Notes under the pieces: model-generated
What the model was told of the DNA's origin: nothing
Database searches by the model: none
The model's input: only the letters and a program-made list of their open reading frames with translations
Virus record (IMG/VR): IMGVR_UViG_3300017727_000158
Coordinates: 1-24,038 of that record
Reading direction: 5' to 3' (one strand)
Source of the DNA: a virus
Length of the DNA: 24,038 nt
In this document: one piece after another, positions 1,967 to 24,038 of the stretch
How the letters are laid out: each line of letters starts with the position of its first letter
Position numbering within the stretch: position 1 is the stretch's first letter
Made by a program: the position numbers and the translations under genes

Positions 1967-2143
1967 TTATTTATTTATTTCCACAGCCGCAGCCTCTTTT
2001 TTTTTTCCTGCTGCTTTAATCGGGGTCTTACCCGCCAATATTTCTGATACTTGTATTGCTGTAATATGATAACGAGCAGCAATTTGATTATTATTTAATC
2101 CTTGCTCATGTGCTTCCTTAACAGCTATATTATAATCCATCAT
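1967..2143 (-). CDS. Small HTH-like protein (58 aa)
   Basis: Starts at the first ATG of a tandem ATGATG and stops 4 nt before the start of the 1-1962 gene; it begins 5 nt after the stop of the 2149-2424 gene. Residues about 10-37 (EQGLNNNQIAARY ... QVSEILAGK) read as a helix-turn-helix of the kind seen in small phage DNA-binding or terminase-like proteins. The rest is Lys/Ala-rich, including four residues encoded over an A10 run. The tight packing between two other genes supports it as real. The function is unknown: a small regulator or a virion-associated DNA-binding peptide are both possible. Confidence 0.6.
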   Translation of the reverse strand: MMDYNIAVKEAHEQGLNNNQIAARYHITAIQVSEILAGKTPIKAAGKKKEAAAVEINK

Positions 2144-2148
2144 AATCT

Positions 2149-2424
2149 TTATTTTTTAGGTTTACGTCCTTTTCTTTTACCTGCTGCCTTAGGTATATCA
2201 TCGATTTGATCTGCTAATTCTTTAGCAGCTGCTTTTACATCTGATATTTCTTCTTTAACACGTTTTACTCTGTGTTTAATATCATCTTTAACTTGCGTTG
2301 CTTTAATTTCAAATGAATCAGGAATGAAATCCTTATCTTCGTCTTTGATTTTACCTTTGTGTAATGCAATAACATATACTGCTATTCCAATAATAATAAC
2401 TGCTGATATAATATATAATAACAT
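2149..2424 (-). CDS. Membrane-anchored coiled-coil protein with basic tail (91 aa)
   Basis: Residues 3-20 are a single hydrophobic membrane segment (LYIISAVIIIGIAVYVIA). A short acidic stretch with DKDFIPDSFE (30-39) follows, then a charged helical region (about 40-75, RVKRVKEEISDVKAAAKEL) and a Lys/Arg tail ending GRKPKK. I recall similar small proteins with a DxDFIPD motif in Bacteroidetes and marine phages, always without an assigned function. The start lies 2 nt after the -1 frame stop of the upstream chaperone gene, which supports both this start and the frameshift. A membrane-associated role is inferred from the anchor; none is demonstrated. Confidence 0.75.
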   Translation of the reverse strand: MLLYIISAVIIIGIAVYVIALHKGKIKDEDKDFIPDSFEIKATQVKDDIKHRVKRVKEEISDVKAAAKELADQIDDIPKAAGKRKGRKPKK

Positions 2425-2426
2425 AA

Positions 2427-3265
2427 TTAAATAATTTTTCTACGTTGTGTTTGTTCTTTTAATGCTTTTTGTTCTTCTTTAATCCAATCACTATCAATTG
2501 ACATATAATTTAATACAAATGTAAAGTTTAAGTCAATGATACTTTTTTGCCCTGTGATATTGAGAATACCTGTGTTGGAGAGTTTATAAATTGTCGCAAA
2601 CCATCCCCAATGTTCACTAAATGACTTAGATTCTCTATCATTAGACTCGTCTTCATCATCGTCTCGTCGTTGGTTGAAGAGGGCAGAGTACTCGTCAAGT
2701 ACGCGCTTGCGCTGCCTAAAAAAAAACCCATGGCACCCAATGCATATTCTACAGGTAATTGTTTCATGTGTTCAGCTGCCTCAAATCTATTATCTGAACT
2801 ATACTGTTTTAATTTATAATGTTTAAAGATATTATCTACTTTTCTCTTATGTAGTAATACTTTATGTGCTTTCTTCCAAAAGAAATTATTGAATATATGT
2901 TTCTTAATTGGGCGATATAATATAGCAGTTATTTCATGTAGGTTTTCTATTGGATCCTGACATAAACGTTCTAAATCAGTAAATTCACCTAATGACATAG
3001 CATTAATATTTGCAAACCCATATTCTATATCTTCGTATTTGAATATAGGATGAAATTCTTCTTTAATGTCTATTACCTTAGCTAAATCTTTGTATATAGT
3101 AGGTATTACACTTGTATCCCATTCTTTGATTTCATCAACACTTATATTACATAAAACAGAAATAATTGTAATTGTTTTTTCTAATTCAGTCAAGTGTTCT
3201 AGAGACGTTATCTGTTGATATTGCTCTATTGTAATAAAATCAGGTATTTCTACTGCTATCTTCAT
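2427..3265 (-). CDS. Frameshifted tail-assembly chaperone (gpGT-like, 279 aa, -1 PRF)
   Basis: This is the long product: 183 codons in frame 0 to the Leu codon at 2719-2717, then a -1 shift onto AGG (2717-2715) and 96 more codons to TAA at 2427-2429. The -1 frame encodes a charged linker and then a well-formed domain (HWGWFATIYKLSNTG, then FTFVLNYMSIDSDWIKEE). Its WGW..IY.L and LxYMS pattern resembles the C-terminal part of phage tail-assembly chaperones as I recall them. The T9-A run at the junction fits a T TTT TTA slippery heptamer. Ending at 2427 leaves only 2 nt before the next gene, whereas the frame-0 stop leaves a 103-nt gap in an otherwise closely packed run. A homopolymer sequencing error would make this one continuous gene instead. 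Confidence 0.75.
2528..3265 (-). CDS. Tail-assembly chaperone, unshifted form (gpG-like, 245 aa)
   Basis: This is the frame-0 product. Residues 1-183 are mostly helical, with MSLGEFTDLERL and EITAILYRPI near the middle and LPVEYALGAMGFFLG just before the slippery run. The SLGEF(T/I)DLE...AILYRP pattern is one I associate with tail-assembly chaperones of Bacteroidetes phages, which bind the tape measure before the tube polymerises. The 62 residues after the slippery site (Ser/Thr-rich, ending SQGKKVSLT) share their DNA with the -1 domain. The gene starts 36 nt after the TerL stop, on an A/T-rich leader. Its place just downstream of TerL and far from the tape-measure-like gene is unusual, so the assignment rests on sequence pattern and the frameshift. 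Confidence 0.7.
   Translation of the reverse strand: MKIAVEIPDFITIEQYQQITSLEHLTELEKTITIISVLCNISVDEIKEWDTSVIPTIYKDLAKVIDIKEEFHPIFKYEDIEYGFANINAMSLGEFTDLERLCQDPIENLHEITAILYRPIKKHIFNNFFWKKAHKVLLHKRKVDNIFKHYKLKQYSSDNRFEAAEHMKQLPVEYALGAMGFFLGSASAYLTSTLPSSTNDETMMKTSLMIENLSHLVNIGDGLRQFINSPTQVFSISQGKKVSLT
2682..2726 (-). promoter_or_regulatory. -1 frameshift element: T9-A slippery run plus predicted three-stem RNA
   Basis: On the minus strand, GGG is followed by nine T (2726-2718) and A (2717), read in frame 0 as GGT TTT TTT TTA. Immediately after comes a stretch that can fold into a three-way junction. P1 is GGCA (2716-2713) with TGCC (2685-2682). P2 is GCG (2712-2710) with CGC (2705-2703). P3 is GTACT (2702-2698) with AGTAC (2692-2688). 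The fold starts with no spacer after the heptamer, closer than the usual 5-8 nt, so P2 or P3 may be the actual stimulator. Confidence 0.65.
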
Positions 3266-3301
3266 TATCGATAAATATTTGATTAATTTTATTTCTATTT
3301 G

Positions 3302-4549
3302 TTATCCGAATGCTACGTTTAAATCTAAATTACCACCTTTACCAACGTATATGCCGCCGGATTTTAAATTTAATCTAGCCTCATTAGCCATTAATAAGGC
3401 ATCAACAGTATCATCGTGATGTCCAGTAGGGTGAGAGAATGACATTTTACCATTTGCTGAAATTTTATAAGTGTATAGTGATAATTCCTCATATAATTCA
3501 GGTGATAGATCTTTAGTTGGTAATTCAACATTCATTTGTTCAATATCCTCAATTAGTTTTCTAACCATTTGAGTTTTATTGTCTTGTGTTGTAGTCCAGG
3601 CTTGTACTTTTCTTACTTTAGGTTTAACTATATCATATAAACCTCTACCAACACCATTTACTTCGACATAACCTCCTTGTATATGGTATTTGCTAAGTGT
3701 TTGAACGACTCTTTCTGCCGCTTCGGTAATGCCGATACCATTAAATCTGTCCAAAGAGCATACTCTCCCTGATTCAGACATGACGCATACAACCGTATAA
3801 TCGGATTGTAAACCGACATCAATTCCAACGAAACATCTGTCTCTTGTGGTTTCATAATTTCTTAGTACACAAACATTTTCTAAACCTCTAAATACATCAC
3901 TAGATGCGTCTGTAAATTCAGCCCAATATTCTTGTCTAAAAATATCTCTAGGTAATGATCGTTCTTGTTCTTGTAAAAATCCATCATCAATATATGGTGA
4001 ATCAAATGATGTACCAGAGAAACTTATATATTGGTCATTATCATCGCTTGTACCACGTAAATACACGTTATAAAACCAGTTACGACCCTTAGGCGTACTA
4101 ATCATTAAACATTTTTTTCCAATAGCAGTTAACGTAGGAAATATAGCCTCGGTCATTGCATTTTCTTTTACGAATGCTGCCTCATCTACTATAATATAAT
4201 TGAATGAAAACCCTCTAATTGAATCAGGTCGTTCAGCTGATAGGAATTGTATTGTAGAACCATTCATAAATTTGATTGTTAAATCAGCTTTATTCTTATG
4301 TTCTATTATTTTATGGGATGCATCAGCTAATTCTTGGAATACTTTTTTAGCTTGATTGTATATAGGAGATATCCATGCACCTTTTTGGTTTGGATTTTGT
4401 AATAACCAGTATATTAATAAGTTTTGTCCTAATAATGATTTACCAAATTGTCTGCCTGTTACAACAACACCAAATTTGTGTTTACTATCCGCAAATCCAT
4501 TTATTATTGGCTTCTGACCCTGATGTGGGGTAAATAAAGTTACCTGCAT
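3302..4549 (-). CDS. terL: Terminase large subunit (ATPase-nuclease)
   Basis: DNA-packaging motor that translocates and cuts phage DNA into the prohead. The N-terminal ATPase has a Walker A variant GRQFGKS (residues 32-38), an aromatic-acid Walker B YIIVDEA (118-124) and a coupling-type motif STPKG (151-155). The C-terminal RNase H-like nuclease shows its acidic residues at GIDVG (Asp244), YVEVNG (Glu296) and HHDDTVDA (Asp380/Asp383). At 415 aa it is compact but has both domains complete. It lies 23 nt after the UVR-motif gene and follows the small-terminase candidate, the usual packaging order. A 65-residue alternative frame inside it (3658-3855) is a shadow. Confidence 0.95.
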   Translation of the reverse strand: MQVTLFTPHQGQKPIINGFADSKHKFGVVVTGRQFGKSLLGQNLLIYWLLQNPNQKGAWISPIYNQAKKVFQELADASHKIIEHKNKADLTIKFMNGSTIQFLSAERPDSIRGFSFNYIIVDEAAFVKENAMTEAIFPTLTAIGKKCLMISTPKGRNWFYNVYLRGTSDDNDQYISFSGTSFDSPYIDDGFLQEQERSLPRDIFRQEYWAEFTDASSDVFRGLENVCVLRNYETTRDRCFVGIDVGLQSDYTVVCVMSESGRVCSLDRFNGIGITEAAERVVQTLSKYHIQGGYVEVNGVGRGLYDIVKPKVRKVQAWTTTQDNKTQMVRKLIEDIEQMNVELPTKDLSPELYEELSLYTYKISANGKMSFSHPTGHHDDTVDALLMANEARLNLKSGGIYVGKGGNLDLNVAFG

Positions 4550-5162: not shown

Positions 5163-7457
5163 TTAATTAAATGTCTTAAATAACAGCGATCTAGGTATTT
5201 TCCAGGTCCAATTCGTATTATCTTCTAACCCGCCGGATAAAGTTACATATTCTCCTTCTAATATCCAACCAGTAATAAAGAACAACGCGTATGGTATTTT
5301 ATTAGAAATTAATGGTTTATATGCAACATCTATAATGTTTAGATCCTTATCTAATTTAACCAGATAGTGATTATAACTCCTTTGCTCATACAATTTAGTA
5401 TGAACCATATACATATATACACCTTCATCCTCAAACCAAATAGGAGCCGTTGATCCACCTACTTTACACGCGGCAGTAAAATACAATTCATTTTGTGGGA
5501 ACTTATTATTGAATTGATTATCAACATCTATTATTTTTTCGAATTCCCAATCACCGGTGTGTTTGTATACTTTATAGTTGGGGCTGGTATTATATATGAA
5601 GTGTAATTCATCGTTATGTACGAACGGTAATAGATTTTTATACCATATTACCTCCTTACCGGCCATGAATTCCATTTTATTAGGTTCGTCAAATTCTAAT
5701 TGTTTAACTACCTTATATTTCTCATCTAGAATAGCCGTTGTTGTATTCCAATTTTTGTCAATATATGAAGCAAAATGATATGGTTTGTTTTTATATACTA
5801 CTGTTCTATAATCTTCCCATTTGCTTAATTCATCGTGTTTAATATTGCGAGTTTTAACGTCTTTCAACGTTAAATCTGCGTTGAAACTAAACTCATATAG
5901 ACTACGACAATCACCTAATTCTTTCATGAATTTAGTGCGGTCTGTAAGCTCATCTAATCTGGCAATACCTTTATATCCGTTACCATTTTTCCATAATGAT
6001 AAATTATGTGAGCAATATTCTGTTTTATATGTCTTTAATTCTTGTCTTGGTGTTTCATCTCGCCAACTGCCTTCAAATAAATGTGTTATATAAATTGATT
6101 TATCTGTGTCTTTACCACTAAATACATCATGTTTAATAGCCCCACTATGACTTTGATTACTACCTACTCTGTTTATTGATAATAATTGTGATCTACCATG
6201 TTGTATATCTGTAGTATAATCGTGGTAAATGCCGAAATGAGCTGTAACGTGTTTTGTAAATCTACCTGGCCCTGTATTTTGTAGTACTCCACCTACTGGA
6301 TTATTAATTATATCATCTATAATTCTATTTAATGGTTCTGCTTTAGGTGCTGCTGCTATAAAATAATTTGCTACACTAACCATATTATCATCAGTGTTAA
6401 CTCCTATGCCTTTAAAGAATTCATTATCTTTAGGTAAACATGCTTCTAATCCTGCTATAAATGTTTGACCATGTATCCAATTATCTAATGGTTGATTACA
6501 AAATGTATCAGCATCTACGTATACACCTCCATTTTCCCACAGATAACAATATCTAAAGAAATCAGTACGTTCACCTTTAGTTTTTAGGTTTTTATAAGCC
6601 GCATTATAAATTGATCTAGCAAACCAATTATTTACAGCATTGTCATCAAAATAAATTAAATCCCAATCAGGATTGTGTTTTTCAAAACTATCAATCATGT
6701 ATTGATTTACATCTAATATATCTTTAGTTGTGTAAATTATTCTACGTGGTATATGATTGAATATTGTTTTGGCTTGAACATAATCCCAGAATTTTTTATT
6801 GCCTATGGCTTCCATCTCTTGTAGTTTACCTGGGTATTCTACATGTAAAATGTCTTTACCATCATATGTGTATTTTGTTCTAGCAAAGTCATGCTTCATT
6901 ATTTTTAGATCTCCATGTTGACCTAATTCAAAATCTGCCTCTATATTATTGCCTAATACTTCATTTACAGATTTACCCATTAATGCAGGACCAGTATAAT
7001 CTAAGTAAAACATTTCTTGTTTGCTTTGACAATTATTAACTATCCTATTAATCGCTTCTTTTAAGAATGGATGCTTGATAGACGCAGCAATAAATGCATT
7101 ACCCAACCATTTCATAGCCATTGGGTCATCCCTCGTGATGATAAAATTATCTGTGGCCTCAATTAGATCATCTAAGGGCGTCTCACATATTGTATCTGCG
7201 TCTATATAAACACCTCCTTGTACATAAAGTACACACAACCTGAACAAATCGGCTTTGAATGCTCCTGGAACTAACGAATGGTATGATGTTAGTACTTCAG
7301 GACCGAAATGTTCCTTTATAAATTTTACTCTATCATGTTTATCAAAAAATGTATACTCGTAATCAGGATTTTTAGTTTGCCATGATAAGCATGCTTTAGA
7401 CATACCATGAGGCAAATCATGAGTTTCAAATGTTTGATATATTTTCTTTGGTATCAT
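5163..7457 (-). CDS. Tandem GT32-type glycosyltransferase with C-terminal beta-propeller-like domain
   Basis: The start is taken at MIPKKIYQTFE (ATG at 7455-7457), which overlaps the upstream stop as ATGA; an in-frame ATG at 7484 would add nine residues but overlaps more. Domain 1 (about 1-225) and domain 2 (about 236-470) each have the Gly_transf_sug/GT32 layout: an IP(K/R)(K/R)I start, a (K/R)xDxFRxCxLxxxGG helix (68-82; 297-311) and a DxD metal-sugar motif (YIDAD 84-88; YVDAD 313-317). Residues about 490-764 repeat blade-like segments, with GGSTAPIWFEDEGVYMYMVH (667-686) and a final GWILEGEYVTLSGG. That suggests a five-bladed propeller of the GH43/GH130 type. The likely role is adding sugars to a phage or host glycan; donor and acceptor are unknown. 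Both DxD motifs look intact. Confidence 0.8.
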   Translation of the reverse strand: MIPKKIYQTFETHDLPHGMSKACLSWQTKNPDYEYTFFDKHDRVKFIKEHFGPEVLTSYHSLVPGAFKADLFRLCVLYVQGGVYIDADTICETPLDDLIEATDNFIITRDDPMAMKWLGNAFIAASIKHPFLKEAINRIVNNCQSKQEMFYLDYTGPALMGKSVNEVLGNNIEADFELGQHGDLKIMKHDFARTKYTYDGKDILHVEYPGKLQEMEAIGNKKFWDYVQAKTIFNHIPRRIIYTTKDILDVNQYMIDSFEKHNPDWDLIYFDDNAVNNWFARSIYNAAYKNLKTKGERTDFFRYCYLWENGGVYVDADTFCNQPLDNWIHGQTFIAGLEACLPKDNEFFKGIGVNTDDNMVSVANYFIAAAPKAEPLNRIIDDIINNPVGGVLQNTGPGRFTKHVTAHFGIYHDYTTDIQHGRSQLLSINRVGSNQSHSGAIKHDVFSGKDTDKSIYITHLFEGSWRDETPRQELKTYKTEYCSHNLSLWKNGNGYKGIARLDELTDRTKFMKELGDCRSLYEFSFNADLTLKDVKTRNIKHDELSKWEDYRTVVYKNKPYHFASYIDKNWNTTTAILDEKYKVVKQLEFDEPNKMEFMAGKEVIWYKNLLPFVHNDELHFIYNTSPNYKVYKHTGDWEFEKIIDVDNQFNNKFPQNELYFTAACKVGGSTAPIWFEDEGVYMYMVHTKLYEQRSYNHYLVKLDKDLNIIDVAYKPLISNKIPYALFFITGWILEGEYVTLSGGLEDNTNWTWKIPRSLLFKTFN

Positions 7458-8680
7458 AGTAATTGTTCCTTTCGTTCTGCCCAACCTTTAGATTCACTAT
7501 GAGCCCAAACTATCCATTTATAAGGTTTTTTAATGTTAGCTTCCCTCCATATGTTAACCCAATCTTTTCTATTTACTTGTGCTTGAAAATTAGTTTCATC
7601 TTTTCTAAATAATTCATTACCATCTTTATCTTCGAAAATAACAGCAGCAAAATTATAATCTGTTTCTACAAAATCATTACCGTGTATATCTATACAATGT
7701 TTAAATTTTAAATTAAATTCTCCATCTGGATCTTGACCTGGTAATTCGTTCTTTAATGTTGATTGTTTTACTGCTCTATCATTAAATCTAATACCAGCAT
7801 AATTTTCCCAATCAGTTATTGTACGTTCTATTCCTAAACCATATTTGGGAAATAATTTTTTACGTTGACATGGAGCACATTCACCATCTACACCTAATAA
7901 TTTTCTCATTCGCTCATGAGATGCCTTATTAACCTCATTCCAACCACTATGATTATCCCAGTGTTTAGTTCTACCTTTTCTAGTGTATTCGTGATAAGCT
8001 ATAATTTTATTAGGGTGAAATAAATCATAACCATGTGTGTATGCCCTAACTGCTATACTAATTTCTTCACCATGAAAATATAATTCAGGATCATGTTGTA
8101 CTTCCTCAGCAAATTTACCTGTAGTAAATGCAAAGTGTGCTGAATAAAATCTAGCAGGTACTGGTTCTTCAGGTTGATTATCTAAATAATAAGGTAAAAA
8201 GAATATTACACCTTCAGGTGTAAATCTATCAAATTGCATTGCCCATGGTACTTTAACTCTACCTGCTGGATCATTATCTGGATCAAATGAAGATATATAA
8301 CTTGTTAGTAATGGTTTTTTATGACCTTTCTTCTTTAGACCTTTGTACATTTTAATTAGCTCAGTATCCCAATTATCTACAAATCTATGGTGTGAATCTA
8401 ATTGTAAAGTATATTCTTCACCATCATATAATTGTTGTATTTGGTTTCTAGCCCAACAAGCACCTTTAGAATCCTTGTAGTCTATATCTATAACCTTTAT
8501 TCTTTTATCATTTGCATAATTAGCTAAACTATCCCATTCATCTTCATCTCCATGTTGATGTGCAATACCTACTACTAAGTTTTCTGGTTTTTTAGCTTTA
8601 TCAAATAAATCCTCTAATGTTGGGATTAATTGAGGGTCTCTATAACTTGCAATTTGTACAAAAATTTTATTTTTTTTCAT
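7454..8680 (-). CDS. GlcNAc-transferase-like glycosyltransferase (408 aa)
   Basis: Resembles the GlcNAc/Skp1-type transferase family (Pfam GlcNAc, GT60-like) found in many large phages. Visible features are an IASYRD nucleotide-binding start (residues 10-15), GACWAR (73-78), the DxD-type metal site QLDSHHRF (93-100), and FHGEE (202-206) with HPNK and YHE downstream. A CAPCQRK segment near residue 270 could be a small metal or disulfide site. It starts inside the stop of the 49-aa gene (ATGA overlap) and ends with an ATGA overlap into the tandem glycosyltransferase, so the two enzymes are probably made together and may act in one pathway. The acceptor is unknown; virion protein or modified DNA base are both possible. 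Confidence 0.85.
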   Translation of the reverse strand: MKKNKIFVQIASYRDPQLIPTLEDLFDKAKKPENLVVGIAHQHGDEDEWDSLANYANDKRIKVIDIDYKDSKGACWARNQIQQLYDGEEYTLQLDSHHRFVDNWDTELIKMYKGLKKKGHKKPLLTSYISSFDPDNDPAGRVKVPWAMQFDRFTPEGVIFFLPYYLDNQPEEPVPARFYSAHFAFTTGKFAEEVQHDPELYFHGEEISIAVRAYTHGYDLFHPNKIIAYHEYTRKGRTKHWDNHSGWNEVNKASHERMRKLLGVDGECAPCQRKKLFPKYGLGIERTITDWENYAGIRFNDRAVKQSTLKNELPGQDPDGEFNLKFKHCIDIHGNDFVETDYNFAAVIFEDKDGNELFRKDETNFQAQVNRKDWVNIWREANIKKPYKWIVWAHSESKGWAERKEQLL

Positions 8681-18580: not shown

Positions 18581-19234
18581 ATGGAAACTAAATGCTGTAC
18601 ACAATGTAAACAAGTAAAATCGTTAGATTTATTTTACGATCGTACAAATGGTCGTAAACAATCATGGTGTAAACAATGTCAATTAAAACAATTAAATGAT
18701 TATTGGAAAACGCCTGAAGGTGTAGCCTATAGAAAACAATACTATTCTGAAAATAAAGAAATATATGCAAAGGCTGCTAAGAAATGGGTAAAGAATAACA
18801 GGAAAAAAGCAAATCAATTTGTTTATAACTGGTATGAACAACATACTGAACAATTTGTTGGTATACAAGACAAATATCAATCTAAAATACCGCCATCTGT
18901 CTACTGTATAAAATATGATGATGAAGTAATTTATGTTGGTAAAGCTCGTAAACCATTAGCCAGAGTAAATGTGCATTTATCAACTATAAAAACCGATAAT
19001 AACTTAAGTAAAGTAAATAAGTTGCATAGCTATTGTGGCTTTGATAAGTCCCGTTTTAGCTACGAGTTTCTAGAGGAAGGTGAATATGATAAATTACTAG
19101 ATATAGAACGTTATTATGAAAATTTATATGATGCTAAAGGCAATTATAAACGTATATTTGGTAAAGTTAAATCAATAAACCAAATATTAAAAGATATAGG
19201 TGGTAAAACAGCTTATGAGAAATATCATAAATAA
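18581..19234 (+). CDS. GIY-YIG endonuclease with N-terminal zinc finger (217 aa)
   Basis: Residues 5-33 hold a CxxC...CxxC zinc ribbon (Cys6/Cys9, Cys30/Cys33). A basic helical linker follows (about 40-85, RKQYYSENKEIYAKAAKKW). Residues 105-185 form a GIY-YIG nuclease domain: VYCI (107-110) for GIY, IYVGKA (117-122) for YIG, catalytic-type Arg128, His132, and Glu176 in DIERYYENLY. Free-standing GIY-YIG enzymes in phages are usually homing endonucleases. This gene is the reverse of its surroundings, has its own promoter-like boxes, and lies between the protease and scaffold genes, as expected for a mobile insertion. The C-terminal RIFGKVKSINQILKDI could be a DNA-binding helix. Whether it still homes cannot be told. 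Confidence 0.8.
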   Translation: METKCCTQCKQVKSLDLFYDRTNGRKQSWCKQCQLKQLNDYWKTPEGVAYRKQYYSENKEIYAKAAKKWVKNNRKKANQFVYNWYEQHTEQFVGIQDKYQSKIPPSVYCIKYDDEVIYVGKARKPLARVNVHLSTIKTDNNLSKVNKLHSYCGFDKSRFSYEFLEEGEYDKLLDIERYYENLYDAKGNYKRIFGKVKSINQILKDIGGKTAYEKYHK

Positions 19235-19792: not shown

Positions 19793-20990
19793 TGTTTAAA
19801 ATTAATTTATCTCTGAATATGCCTTCAACACTAAAGCCTTTAACTTTACCTGTTTTAACATAATCATCCCATACTTGTTTGTTATTTACTTTGTATACTC
19901 CAAACCAACTACCTTTAGATAGTTTATAGCCATAAGCAGCAGATTTATCTTTTTCTGGATCATCTACAAGCCATGTCTCTACCAATGTTATATCACTTAC
20001 TTTTTGATCAGCATTATGTTCTATGTTTACTGAATCAATTTGTTTGTTTTGCATTAGTTTATACGATAATTTTTTAATACCCTCAGCATCAAAGAAAACA
20101 TAATATTTGTTACCTTCATCATCAACACGAGGTATTAATTTATCAGCTATCATTAATGGACCAGCTAATATTTGTTGGTCTTGATTTATAGCACTAAATC
20201 CTTCTTTAACAGTAGATACTTCTTCATTTAAAACATCTTGAACTACTTTATAGTAAAGATCATAAATGTTAAAATCATCAGGTTTTTGAATTTTACGTAA
20301 GCCTTTAGTATATTGTCCTACTACTTTACCTGATTTAAGTTTAATAATTGCTAATGGATTATCTTTAGTAGGTTTAAATTCAAATGATGTACCCGGTATT
20401 TTTACAGTACCTTCTACTCTAATATCTGTTATTTGTCCTCTTGATCTATCTTTATCTTTAGTTTTACCTGCAAATCCAAATGATACAAAATCACCTACAC
20501 TAAATCCATCTGCTGATTTAACAAAATAATCTCTAATAATTTCTTCATTTTGTTTTTCTAATAAACCAGCTTGTCTTAATTTTTTTTCTGCCCATGGTAA
20601 TGCACTAGGTCCACCCCATAGTAAATAAGATATGTAACCACATGCTTCATAATCTTTTCTTTTAACAGCTAAATCATAATTATCTCTTTGACGTAACAAA
20701 AATGAACGCATACGTTTGATTGTATCAATTGTTACATTCTTACCTTGAGCTAATTGTTGAGCACGTTGTTTTCCAACTAATGTGCCACATTTATTTCCCA
20801 ATTCTTTATTGCGTTTAATTCCTTGTTCGGCCGCCTTGCGTGCTGCTTGAGGGTAATCATTAAATGACGCGAATTTATGTTCTGAAAACATTAAAAAATC
20901 CATTTCAATAGCTGGTTCTTCAACCAATGCTACTGCATCTAATCCTTCTAAATCGTTTTCTTCGTCAATTGTTAATTTAACTATTTTCAT
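19773..20990 (-). CDS. Prohead maturation protease with Tudor-like insert (405 aa)
   Basis: Processes scaffold and capsid proteins during head maturation. The N-terminus (GLDAVALVEEPAIEMDFLMF, 16-35) and the C-terminal domain (about 270-400: GPLMIADKLIPR, VNIEHN with His325, KGSWFG with Ser361, KGFSVEGIF) fit XkdF-type phage serine proteases. A helical block (about 48-142, AARKAAEQGIKRNKELGNK, then YLLWGGPSALPWAEKKLRQ) and a small beta domain (about 158-234, FSVGDFVSFGFAGKTKD, then GQITDIRVEG) are inserted between. The beta domain has the GDxVSW...G.I..I pattern of the hypervirulence-associated Tudor family (DUF2945-like). Its 4-nt overlap with the tape-measure gene (ATGA) suggests coupling. 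Domain calls are by eye; the third catalytic residue is not clear. Confidence 0.75.
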   Translation of the reverse strand: MKIVKLTIDEENDLEGLDAVALVEEPAIEMDFLMFSEHKFASFNDYPQAARKAAEQGIKRNKELGNKCGTLVGKQRAQQLAQGKNVTIDTIKRMRSFLLRQRDNYDLAVKRKDYEACGYISYLLWGGPSALPWAEKKLRQAGLLEKQNEEIIRDYFVKSADGFSVGDFVSFGFAGKTKDKDRSRGQITDIRVEGTVKIPGTSFEFKPTKDNPLAIIKLKSGKVVGQYTKGLRKIQKPDDFNIYDLYYKVVQDVLNEEVSTVKEGFSAINQDQQILAGPLMIADKLIPRVDDEGNKYYVFFDAEGIKKLSYKLMQNKQIDSVNIEHNADQKVSDITLVETWLVDDPEKDKSAAYGYKLSKGSWFGVYKVNNKQVWDDYVKTGKVKGFSVEGIFRDKLILNNAITSN

Positions 20991-22582
20991 CCTATTCTTC
21001 GTTTTGAATTTAGTCGAGCAGATGCTTCTTGTGATGATGATACATCTCCACTTACAACATAAGCTCTAATCATTTGATCCCCTGCATTTACTTCAGGAGA
21101 TACTCCTGATGGTGGTGCTGAAGGAACTGATGCAACTCCTCTACCTATGTTTGCAGATGGTGTTGGTATACTACCTCCTACACCTTTAGATGCTGATTTA
21201 GCACCTTTAACTGCTGAAACAACTGCTGCTATAATACCTGCTGCTTGAACTGCGTATGCTATAAGTAACGGAATATTTTGTGGGAATCCAACCGCTGCTG
21301 TTTTTGCTGCACCTGTTGCTGTAGCAACTGTTGCTTCTGATGCTTTTAAAGTAGAGAATGTAATGGTTTTCTTTGCTTCCATTATCAATTCTTTAGCAGC
21401 TAATACTTGTTTTGCAATTAATAAACCTCTACCTACTTTTGTTTCTGCACCTGCTAAAGCAATCATATTATCAAGTGAATTAGAACGTGCTGCATCTAAT
21501 TTCATTTGATTTTCTATAACGGCTACAGCATATTCACCATCTGCATTTTGCTTTTCTTTGTTAATTATTTTAACACCTGTAGCTACAACTGCTGCTGTTT
21601 CAACTTCTTTTAAACCTGCTGATGTAATAGCATTTACTGTTGTTACTTTTTCTCTAACAACTGTATTTGCACTTTCATCTCTAATACGTTTTTGTTCAGC
21701 AGCATTTAATGCTAGTATTTCTGTTTCCTTAGCATATATTGCTTCTTTCTCAGCAGCATTTGTTTTTAATTGTAATAATTCTGCTTCTAATAATTTCTTT
21801 CTCTCATCATATATTTCTTTAGCTGATGCTCCTGATGCTTGTAGTATTGCTAATTCACGTTGTGTTGCTGCAATTAATTCTGAATTAACTTGTTTTGCAG
21901 CCATTAAAGCACGTTCTGCTTCATCAGGTAAAATACCTAAGAATTCTAATACAGGTCTAGCTGCATCAAATAAAGCATCAAATGAACTTTTAATAAAGTC
22001 AATTGCTTGTCCTATAAATGGAACATTATTAGCAAATCGTTTTGCTGCCTTAGTTATGTCATCCCAATAGGCTATAACTGTACCTAATGCTACTATAAAA
22101 GCACCAACTCCAGTAGCAATTAAAGCCTTTTTAGTTGTACTACCAAATAGTTTAGCTGCTATACCTGATTTTTTCATTACAGTACTAAACTGCATAAATC
22201 CTTCAGATACATCTTTTATACCTAAACCAACAGCAATTGCTGAGGCTGCTTTAGCTTCAAATTCACCAAATCGTTCTGATTCAATACCTAAAGCACCTAA
22301 TGTACCTACTGCTGCTGTTAAACTACCAGCAAATATTTTAGCTGCACCATCAGCAGCCATTAATTTATCTTCAAACTGTAGCCCTGTAATCGCATCATTA
22401 ACCTTATCTAATTCTTTAGTTAATGCCTGAGATTGTTTTGATAATTCTTTAAATGCCTGACTACCAGCAGGAACATCTCTCAGTTCATCATTAATTGCTG
22501 ATAATTCGTCTTCAAGTTGACCAAGCGACTTTATTGCCGCTTGATCATTGACTTTTACATTATATTCTAAAGTTGTGGCCAT
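20987..22582 (-). CDS. Tape-measure-like protein (531 aa)
   Basis: N-terminal coiled coil (LGQLEDELSAINDELRDVPA, FKELSKQSQALTKELDKV), then hydrophobic helices at residues about 78-100 and 152-173 (KALIATGVGAFIVALGTVIA). A long heptad region runs from about 220 to 345 (ELLQLKTNAAEKEAIYAK), with a second hydrophobic segment near 425-460 (NIPLLIAYAVQAAGIIAAVV). The C-terminus is Gly/Pro/Ser-rich and ends ARLNSKRRIG. This is the layout of Bacteroidetes phage tape measures, which set tail length and may pass through the membrane. At 531 aa the predicted tail would be short to medium. It lies upstream of the protease and far from the chaperone candidate, which is unusual. Confidence 0.7.
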   Translation of the reverse strand: MATTLEYNVKVNDQAAIKSLGQLEDELSAINDELRDVPAGSQAFKELSKQSQALTKELDKVNDAITGLQFEDKLMAADGAAKIFAGSLTAAVGTLGALGIESERFGEFEAKAASAIAVGLGIKDVSEGFMQFSTVMKKSGIAAKLFGSTTKKALIATGVGAFIVALGTVIAYWDDITKAAKRFANNVPFIGQAIDFIKSSFDALFDAARPVLEFLGILPDEAERALMAAKQVNSELIAATQRELAILQASGASAKEIYDERKKLLEAELLQLKTNAAEKEAIYAKETEILALNAAEQKRIRDESANTVVREKVTTVNAITSAGLKEVETAAVVATGVKIINKEKQNADGEYAVAVIENQMKLDAARSNSLDNMIALAGAETKVGRGLLIAKQVLAAKELIMEAKKTITFSTLKASEATVATATGAAKTAAVGFPQNIPLLIAYAVQAAGIIAAVVSAVKGAKSASKGVGGSIPTPSANIGRGVASVPSAPPSGVSPEVNAGDQMIRAYVVSGDVSSSQEASARLNSKRRIG

Positions 22583-22617: not shown

Positions 22618-23451
22618 TTATGGAGGACAACTACCACAACTTGTATGGAATGAAACAAAAGTTGCTTGGTAATCTACAATTCCACCAGTATAGTTATTAT
22701 CTATAATTTCCCAACATTTACCATCTAAGAATGCACCACTACTTTGTAATTTAAGTGCTGCTCCATTAAAGAAATTACTTGAATATTGAAATTCAATATA
22801 ATAAGTATTAAATTGACCACATTCTCTAATTTGCATTCTTTGTGTTGGAACAGTTGCTGTTGGAGTAGGTGTAGTTCCAGTACAAGGAACATTAGTACCT
22901 AATGATCCACCTGCATTAACTATCCTATATGTTGTTCCATCACTTAAAGTATAACCTCCTGGTACTGGATTATTAATGTAAGGATCAGTCCAAACATATG
23001 TTGCAGTTTGTAATTGTGTTCCATCAAAATAGTAAGTATTTGTTGGTGAACTTAGCAAACAAGCATCAGGATTAGGTGCTCCAGTAGTTCTATATCTTAC
23101 TGTTATTGCAGTTCTAGCTGAAGTTGGTGTTGGAGTAGCCGTAGGAGTTGCTGTAGGCCCTACAGGTGTTGCTGTTGGTGTACCAGTTACTGTTGGTGTA
23201 GGTGTGGGTACTGCAGATGTTGCTGTAGGTGTAGGTGTTATTGTAACACATCCTGTAACAGTTACTGCATTTGTACATGTCCCTGTTGAACGAATTATGT
23301 AAGTATTATAAGGAGTTACTGAATAACCACTTACTAATTCTGATCTTGAAACCCCACTAGCCAGCAAGTTTCCACCTACCTCACTTGTGTGGTATATGTC
23401 AAATGGGCCTACTGATGCTCCCATCGTCGTTGCTGTTAATATTACTGCCAT
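22618..23451 (-). CDS. Pro-Thr-linked fibre or decoration protein (277 aa)
   Basis: Residues 1-68 form a small beta module (GPFDIYHTSEVGGNLLASG, then CTNAVTVTGC). A Pro-Thr stalk (71-111), a second beta module (about 113-190) and a short stalk (192-203) follow. The C-terminal module (204-277) has KCWEII and ends TSCGSCPP. The CW...CxxC module also occurs in the 1-1962 protein, and the stalk type is shared too. Such modules recur in structural proteins of uncultured marine phages. A surface-exposed virion component is inferred. The start (MAVILTATTM) has an A/T-rich leader, 33 nt after the preceding gene. Confidence 0.7.
   Translation of the reverse strand: MAVILTATTMGASVGPFDIYHTSEVGGNLLASGVSRSELVSGYSVTPYNTYIIRSTGTCTNAVTVTGCVTITPTPTATSAVPTPTPTVTGTPTATPVGPTATPTATPTPTSARTAITVRYRTTGAPNPDACLLSSPTNTYYFDGTQLQTATYVWTDPYINNPVPGGYTLSDGTTYRIVNAGGSLGTNVPCTGTTPTPTATVPTQRMQIRECGQFNTYYIEFQYSSNFFNGAALKLQSSGAFLDGKCWEIIDNNYTGGIVDYQATFVSFHTSCGSCPP
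22843..22878 (-). repeat. Short Pro-Thr linker repeat
   Basis: A 12-residue TGTTPTPTATVP linker between the second and third beta modules of the 22618-23451 protein. Confidence 0.6.
23119..23241 (-). repeat. Low-complexity Pro-Thr codon repeat
   Basis: A 41-residue Pro-Thr stalk with Ala, Val, Gly and Ser interruptions in the 22618-23451 protein, using the same degenerate unit as the stalks at the left edge. Confidence 0.8.
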
Positions 23452-23483: not shown

Positions 23484-24038
23484 TTAACATAATGTTTCAC
23501 CTGTTCCTACTGTACCTAAACTATTTGTTGATGTCCAATAGTAATCATTTGCTCCATCATTGTAAGAATAGAATCCACTTCCTATAAAGTTAGTGTATGT
23601 AGCACCTGCAGCATATACTCTATCACCTGATTCTATAAGGGCACCTGTATTACCACTACGTTTCAATAATCTAAATGCTCTTAATTGAGTATATCCACAA
23701 GCTGTAGTACTACTTCCAGCACCTCCATCATTTGGATCCCAACTTGAATCAACTACTTTAGCATTGAAATCATAGAATGTACCACATACTCCACTACCTT
23801 GTACTGCAGTATCTCCAGGTCCATATTCAACAAAGAATAATGGTAAATCACCTTGTACATCACTTAATCCCCAGTATCTGTCAGCAGCCGCTCCATTTGA
23901 TAATGAAGTAGTTAAATTAGCATCTTGATATAATTGAGCACCAACTTGAACTGCTGCCATTAATGTAGGTTGTTGTGAGTAAACCGCTGTATTAGCATTT
24001 CCAGCACAAGCACCACTACTATCTGTATAAGGTGTTGG
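23484..24038 (-). CDS. Fibre-like protein, C-terminal fragment (start beyond window)
   Basis: The frame is open through the right edge, so the ATG at 23960 is probably internal: upstream in-frame residues read PTPYTDSSGACAGNAN and continue the same style of protein. The fragment (184 residues) begins at the tail of a Pro-Thr linker and carries a QLYQDANLTTSL motif, matching the YTDxxLTT modules of the 1-1962 protein. Two beta segments follow, with GVCGTFYDF and ACGYTQLRAF, and it ends YYWTSTNSLGTVGTGETLC. It is probably another modular surface or fibre protein. Its N-terminal domain is not visible. Confidence 0.7.
   Translation of the reverse strand, partial: PTPYTDSSGACAGNANTAVYSQQPTLMAAVQVGAQLYQDANLTTSLSNGAAADRYWGLSDVQGDLPLFFVEYGPGDTAVQGSGVCGTFYDFNAKVVDSSWDPNDGGAGSSTTACGYTQLRAFRLLKRSGNTGALIESGDRVYAAGATYTNFIGSGFYSYNDGANDYYWTSTNSLGTVGTGETLC

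Follow-up and report, generated by a model that had tools for sequence, protein, structure and literature searches.

Does the gene beside the terminase of this marine phage encode one protein or two, and if two, what shifts the frame and what might the proteins do? The gene lies in a 24,038-nt stretch of viral DNA (positions 1 to 24,038 of virus record IMGVR_UViG_3300017727_000158), analysed here in full and referred to as the window. Directly upstream on the same minus strand is the gene for the terminase large subunit, TerL (3302–4549; phrog_2, E 1.9e-53; Pfam Terminase_6N and 6C). The initial annotation, made from the sequence alone, had proposed a programmed -1 frameshift in a candidate tail-assembly chaperone.

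Two overlapping reading frames meet at a run of nine Ts

The frame-0 open reading frame (ORF), as read from the sequence, runs from 3265 to 2528 on the minus strand and encodes 245 aa. It passes through a run of nine Ts (T9) at 2718–2726 in the frame-0 context GGT TTT TTT TTA GGC. The part up to the slip site (2715–3265, minus strand) encodes a chaperone-like N-terminal domain of 183 aa that both products would share, and its AlphaFold2 model is confident (mean pLDDT 92.8). Beyond the run, the two frames overlap. The tail of the short product continues in frame 0 for approximately 62–65 codons to a TAA ending at 2528 (2528–2717, minus strand), while the -1 frame encodes the C-terminal domain of the long product in 96 codons plus a stop (2427–2717, minus strand; translation FFFRQRKRV...QRRKII*, with the TAA ending at 2427). 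This domain has a WGW-type core that is conserved in relatives, as is its length; a predicted structure was set aside due to low confidence (pLDDT 59). The ATG of the next gene, which encodes a small protein whose N-terminal part includes a hydrophobic stretch (2149–2424, minus strand), is at 2424, leaving a gap of 2 nt after the -1 stop compared to 103 nt after the frame-0 TAA. The coordinates, the T9 run, the length of the -1 extension and both gaps given in the initial annotation all agree with the sequence.

The slip site is conserved across a large group of aquatic phages

Comparison of the slippery run across related genomes had been suggested as a check on the frameshift. We collected relatives down to approximately 25–30% identity, searching with the N-terminal and C-terminal parts separately. 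Among 210 distinct 200-nt sites, which are counts of distinct sequences rather than of independent events, T9 was present in 178 and T10 in 32, with no shorter run at any site; T11 was found in one further contig. Four shorter runs that had been flagged were located downstream of T9 within the same genes. The -1 domain was conserved over its full length, with relatives 29–59% identical to the window.

The individual searches agreed. Using the C-terminal domain alone, we recovered nine loci (L008–L014 at 43–58% identity), all sharing the -1 relation and a run of precisely nine Ts, and mining of TerL neighbours revealed a second, more distant branch that also has T9 or T10. Slip codons were excluded from later pattern searches to avoid bias. 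T9 was present in 80 of 80 loci found with C-domain patterns and in 80 of 80 found with N-domain patterns, including two of the latter where the contig ends too early for the extension to be checked. An N-domain search of the sister branch gave 34 sites with T9, 45 with T10 and one with T11. In the group of Nonlabens phage P12024L, followed down to 25% identity, 62 sites had T9 and one had T10, although one of the six patterns used in that search did span the slip site.

Homopolymers of at least nine A or T are rare elsewhere in these phages (15 in 394 kb), yet the run occupies the same exact codon in every relative, so its occurrence by chance is excluded. No relative lacking the run was found, and the T11 contig is the only one with a single fused gene. 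The conservation of both the site and the -1 relation strongly supports the proposed programmed frameshift, by which the slip gene would produce two proteins from one start. What is conserved is a run length of nine to ten, not merely a slippery heptamer.

The family also occurs in cultivated flavobacterial phages. In the Nonlabens phages P12024L (ORF40/41) and P12024S (ORF38/39), both of the genus Inhavirus, the same gene follows directly after TerL with T9 at the point where the two ORFs meet, and the ORFs are annotated as separate hypothetical genes. The fold of the N-domain matched a P12024 protein in BFVD (I6R9M9, E 1.4e-10). These phages differ from the window in that T9 is in another codon phase and the frame-0 tail is only approximately 28 codons long. 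The shared slip site explains these two orphan ORFs and was missed by existing annotation; more broadly, it is a conserved recoding site for marine and freshwater phages of a large group that is mostly unannotated. We found no relative of the slip gene in GTDB contigs (host genomes), and no published work on the family in the open-access literature.

Both tails of the overlap are kept open

In most relatives the frame-0 tail extends for 57–70 codons, and nearly all relatives lack stops in it. When the -1 protein was held fixed and its synonymous codons were randomised, 1.5–4.6 frame-0 stops per sequence were expected in this tail, compared to 0.00–0.02 observed. Stops in the third frame, and in the region past the frame-0 stop, were about as frequent as expected or more so. 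Since the deficit is confined to the frame-0 tail, these results support the interpretation that this tail is selectively stop-free and that both tails are kept open. We also considered selection on the frame-0 tail at the amino acid level, and rejected it: the codon conservation ratio was 1.24–1.32 in the overlap versus 1.28–1.30 beyond it. Due to this lack of extra codon conservation, our claim is limited to openness and does not extend to a conserved frame-0 sequence.

RNA polymerase slippage is slightly favoured over ribosomal slippage

The shift could be made by RNA polymerase, through insertion of one U on T9, or by the ribosome, through -1 slippage. Most relatives read the run as xxT TTT TTT TTR, phages related to L020 read it as TTG TTT TTT TTT ACG, and L059 together with the P12024 group reads it as xTT TTT TTT Txx. 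Thus, T9 is found in all three codon phases, and in each a heptamer lies inside the run, with flanking codons supplying the Ts needed for nine. At the wobble position ahead of the first TTT, all 76 distinct loci had T, spanning six codons (AGT, AAT, GGT, TCT, ACT and GCT) and five amino acids (log10 p of approximately -24 under a star phylogeny, which overstates independence). Both the three phases and the constant wobble T speak for selection on the length of the run itself. No downstream stimulatory stem-loop or pseudoknot was detected across 38 loci (mean z -0.01 and 0.18). The occurrence of T9 in all three phases, along with the lack of a downstream structure, tips our interpretation slightly towards RNA polymerase.

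In many bacteria, selection against RNA polymerase slippage becomes apparent once a run reaches nine As or Ts, and slippage on runs of this length is documented (PMC1088944, PMC5009743). As would be expected for transcriptional slippage, a run of at least this length is conserved at the frame junction in all 210 sites. Thermus thermophilus dnaX and bacterial insertion sequence (IS) elements similarly use a nine-base A/T homopolymer to make two products (PMC1088944, PMC5009743). Those, however, are cellular or IS genes with transcriptional slippage, whereas for the phage gene polymerase use is a candidate mechanism only.

There is only slightly less than an even chance that the same two-product chaperone gene shifts purely on the ribosome, by tandem -1 slippage on U_UUU_UUU or U_UUU_UUR, an alternative that opposes the polymerase mechanism and leaves the two-product gene intact. 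A valid in-frame X_XXY_YYZ heptamer (U_UUU_UUA/G or U_UUU_UUU) is available in every phase of T9, and the amino acids of both frames fix part of the run, both of which weigh against the polymerase. The closest characterised homologue, P2 E, has a TTTTTTG junction annotated as a -1 translational frameshift. The missing downstream structure is dispensable in known phage frameshifts (PMC5009743). Against a purely ribosomal shift, seven bases are enough for a heptamer, yet no relative falls below nine; the wobble T is invariant across five amino acids, and the two extra Ts are supplied by different flanks in the three phases.

Returning to polymerase slippage, it is plausible, if a little short of an even bet, that in a large group of aquatic phages, flavobacterial phages included, the ratio of chaperone products is set by slippage of the polymerase on a fixed T9, within a long, doubly coded open overlap. 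The main points of interest at this locus are a run length that stays fixed in all codon phases and an overlap that is open in both frames, and a single site in three phases provides a natural test of polymerase versus ribosome.

The slip gene resembles frameshifted tail-assembly chaperone genes

The slip gene is strongly conserved and unannotated, and is a variant of an already known kind of gene. Setting aside which enzyme slips, we consider it quite probable, from sequence comparisons, that it is a two-product tail-assembly-chaperone-like gene. One gene would give rise to two proteins with a common 183-aa N-terminal domain. The majority product would end in the frame-0 tail (245 aa), while in a minority a slip on T9 to the -1 frame would add the C-terminal domain of 96 residues. 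Analogy with lambda gpG/gpGT and P2 gpE/gpE+E' suggests a tail assembly chaperone, with a common part that would coat the tape measure protein and an extension that would recruit tail tube subunits. The frames and their conservation are read directly from the DNA; the chaperone role is suggested by this analogy.

The closest characterised homologue is P2 gpE/gpE+E' (Pfam Phage_TAC_7, PHROG 103/166). It too has an N-terminal chaperone domain and shifts by -1 at a T-run, close to a GF(F)L motif, to add a C-terminal extension; the sister branch resembles it remotely at the profile level. In P2, however, the shift occurs at T6G, a few codons ahead of the frame-0 stop, in a gene directly before the tape measure gene, whereas the slip gene has T9 or T10, a larger N-domain, the long frame-0 tail shared by most relatives, and TerL as its neighbour. 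Lambda gpG/gpGT (Pfam Phage_TAC_2) resembles it in making two overlapping products by a -1 shift and in its proposed role in tail assembly, but there is no detectable sequence similarity, and in lambda the G and T genes are flanked by V and H.

To compare profiles, we used an alignment of ten P2 gpE relatives, as HHalign comparisons with individual sequences from P2, Mu or lambda were uninformative. The N-terminal alignment of the sister branch scored 32.5 against this alignment, whereas none of 150 column shuffles exceeded 15.8. For the alignment of the whole family, including the window, the score was 23.7, and no shuffle exceeded 16.2. The score for the window's own branch alone was not significant. 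P2 gpE matches phrog_103 (6e-45) and phrog_166 (4e-7), and relatives of the slip gene also match both (best 7e-5). With Pfam Phage_TAC_7, the best relative reached 16.3 bits against a cut-off of 25 (E 0.01), and the window protein had no match. We found no meaningful fold or sequence match in the PDB, and named chaperones matched weakly in the BFVD fold search. Another BFVD match, Flavobacterium phage 6H R9VW65 (E 9e-5; presumed from its length to be gp10), has no T9 at its end and was left aside.

The position of the gene differs from that of canonical chaperone pairs. A probable tape measure gene in the window is at 20987–22582 (minus strand; phrog_24676, E 7e-4), and in relatives a tape-measure-like gene follows the slip gene approximately 7–11 kb downstream or, on other contigs, precedes it. 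The initial annotation had correctly placed the gene beside TerL rather than next to the tape measure gene, and this arrangement recurs in relatives. As in G/GT-type genes, two overlapping frames are joined at a conserved slippage site, which would yield a short product and an extended one, but the gene is not immediately upstream of the tape measure gene and is therefore filed as chaperone-like rather than as a canonical G/GT member. Position-based annotation will miss chaperone-like frameshift genes located this far from the tape measure.

It is unlikely, though deserving of some weight, that this is a real frameshift pair with a different virion or head-tail role, one particular to these phages and perhaps linked to packaging. 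Such a role would fit the adjacency to TerL, repeated in closer relatives and in P12024L/S, as well as the distance to the tape measure gene and the N-domain fold, for which the PDB holds no match. The remote similarity to the P2 gpE families argues against it, as does a relative of the tail completion/Neck1 family among the genes downstream of the slip gene (phrog_5, 6.7e-6). In addition, coupling to TerL is not strict, since other genes intervene in some relatives, such as L022. The chaperone proposed in the initial annotation is the preferred reading, with the resemblance of the sister branch to P2 gpE/Phage_TAC_7 and the nearby tail-completion gene in its favour; it is not proven, and the window's branch on its own lacks that similarity.

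Run-length exceptions and neighbouring features

A homopolymer error in sequencing or assembly that split one gene, a concern raised in the initial annotation, has a negligible probability and is ruled out by conservation: one contig (L112, the same as L408) has both frames joined, compared to 210 distinct sites with T9 or T10 across many independent metagenomes, as well as two isolate genomes, with a constant -1 relation and a frame-0 tail that is kept open. The run in that contig is T11, as opposed to T10 in its kin, which may be an error or a rare natural fusion. The window has only one other homopolymer of at least nine, an A10 (minus strand) at 1997–2006, which falls within a small ORF of helix-turn-helix-like character a short distance past the slip gene.

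In L022, TerL is separated from the slip gene by several extra ORFs at 1999–3929, one of them methyltransferase-like. We considered whether the window closes into a circle and rejected this, as L001 runs past the left end into other genes. Upstream of the terminase, two adjacent large glycosyltransferase-like genes lie within the structural run (5163–8680, minus strand). The same phage encodes proteins with, or bordering, long Thr-Pro rich repeats, possibly linkers, at 1–1962, 22618–23451 and 23484–24038 (minus strand). A lone plus-strand ORF at 18581–19234, between structural genes, has a zinc-finger-like start and a GIY-YIG-like segment and is perhaps a homing endonuclease.
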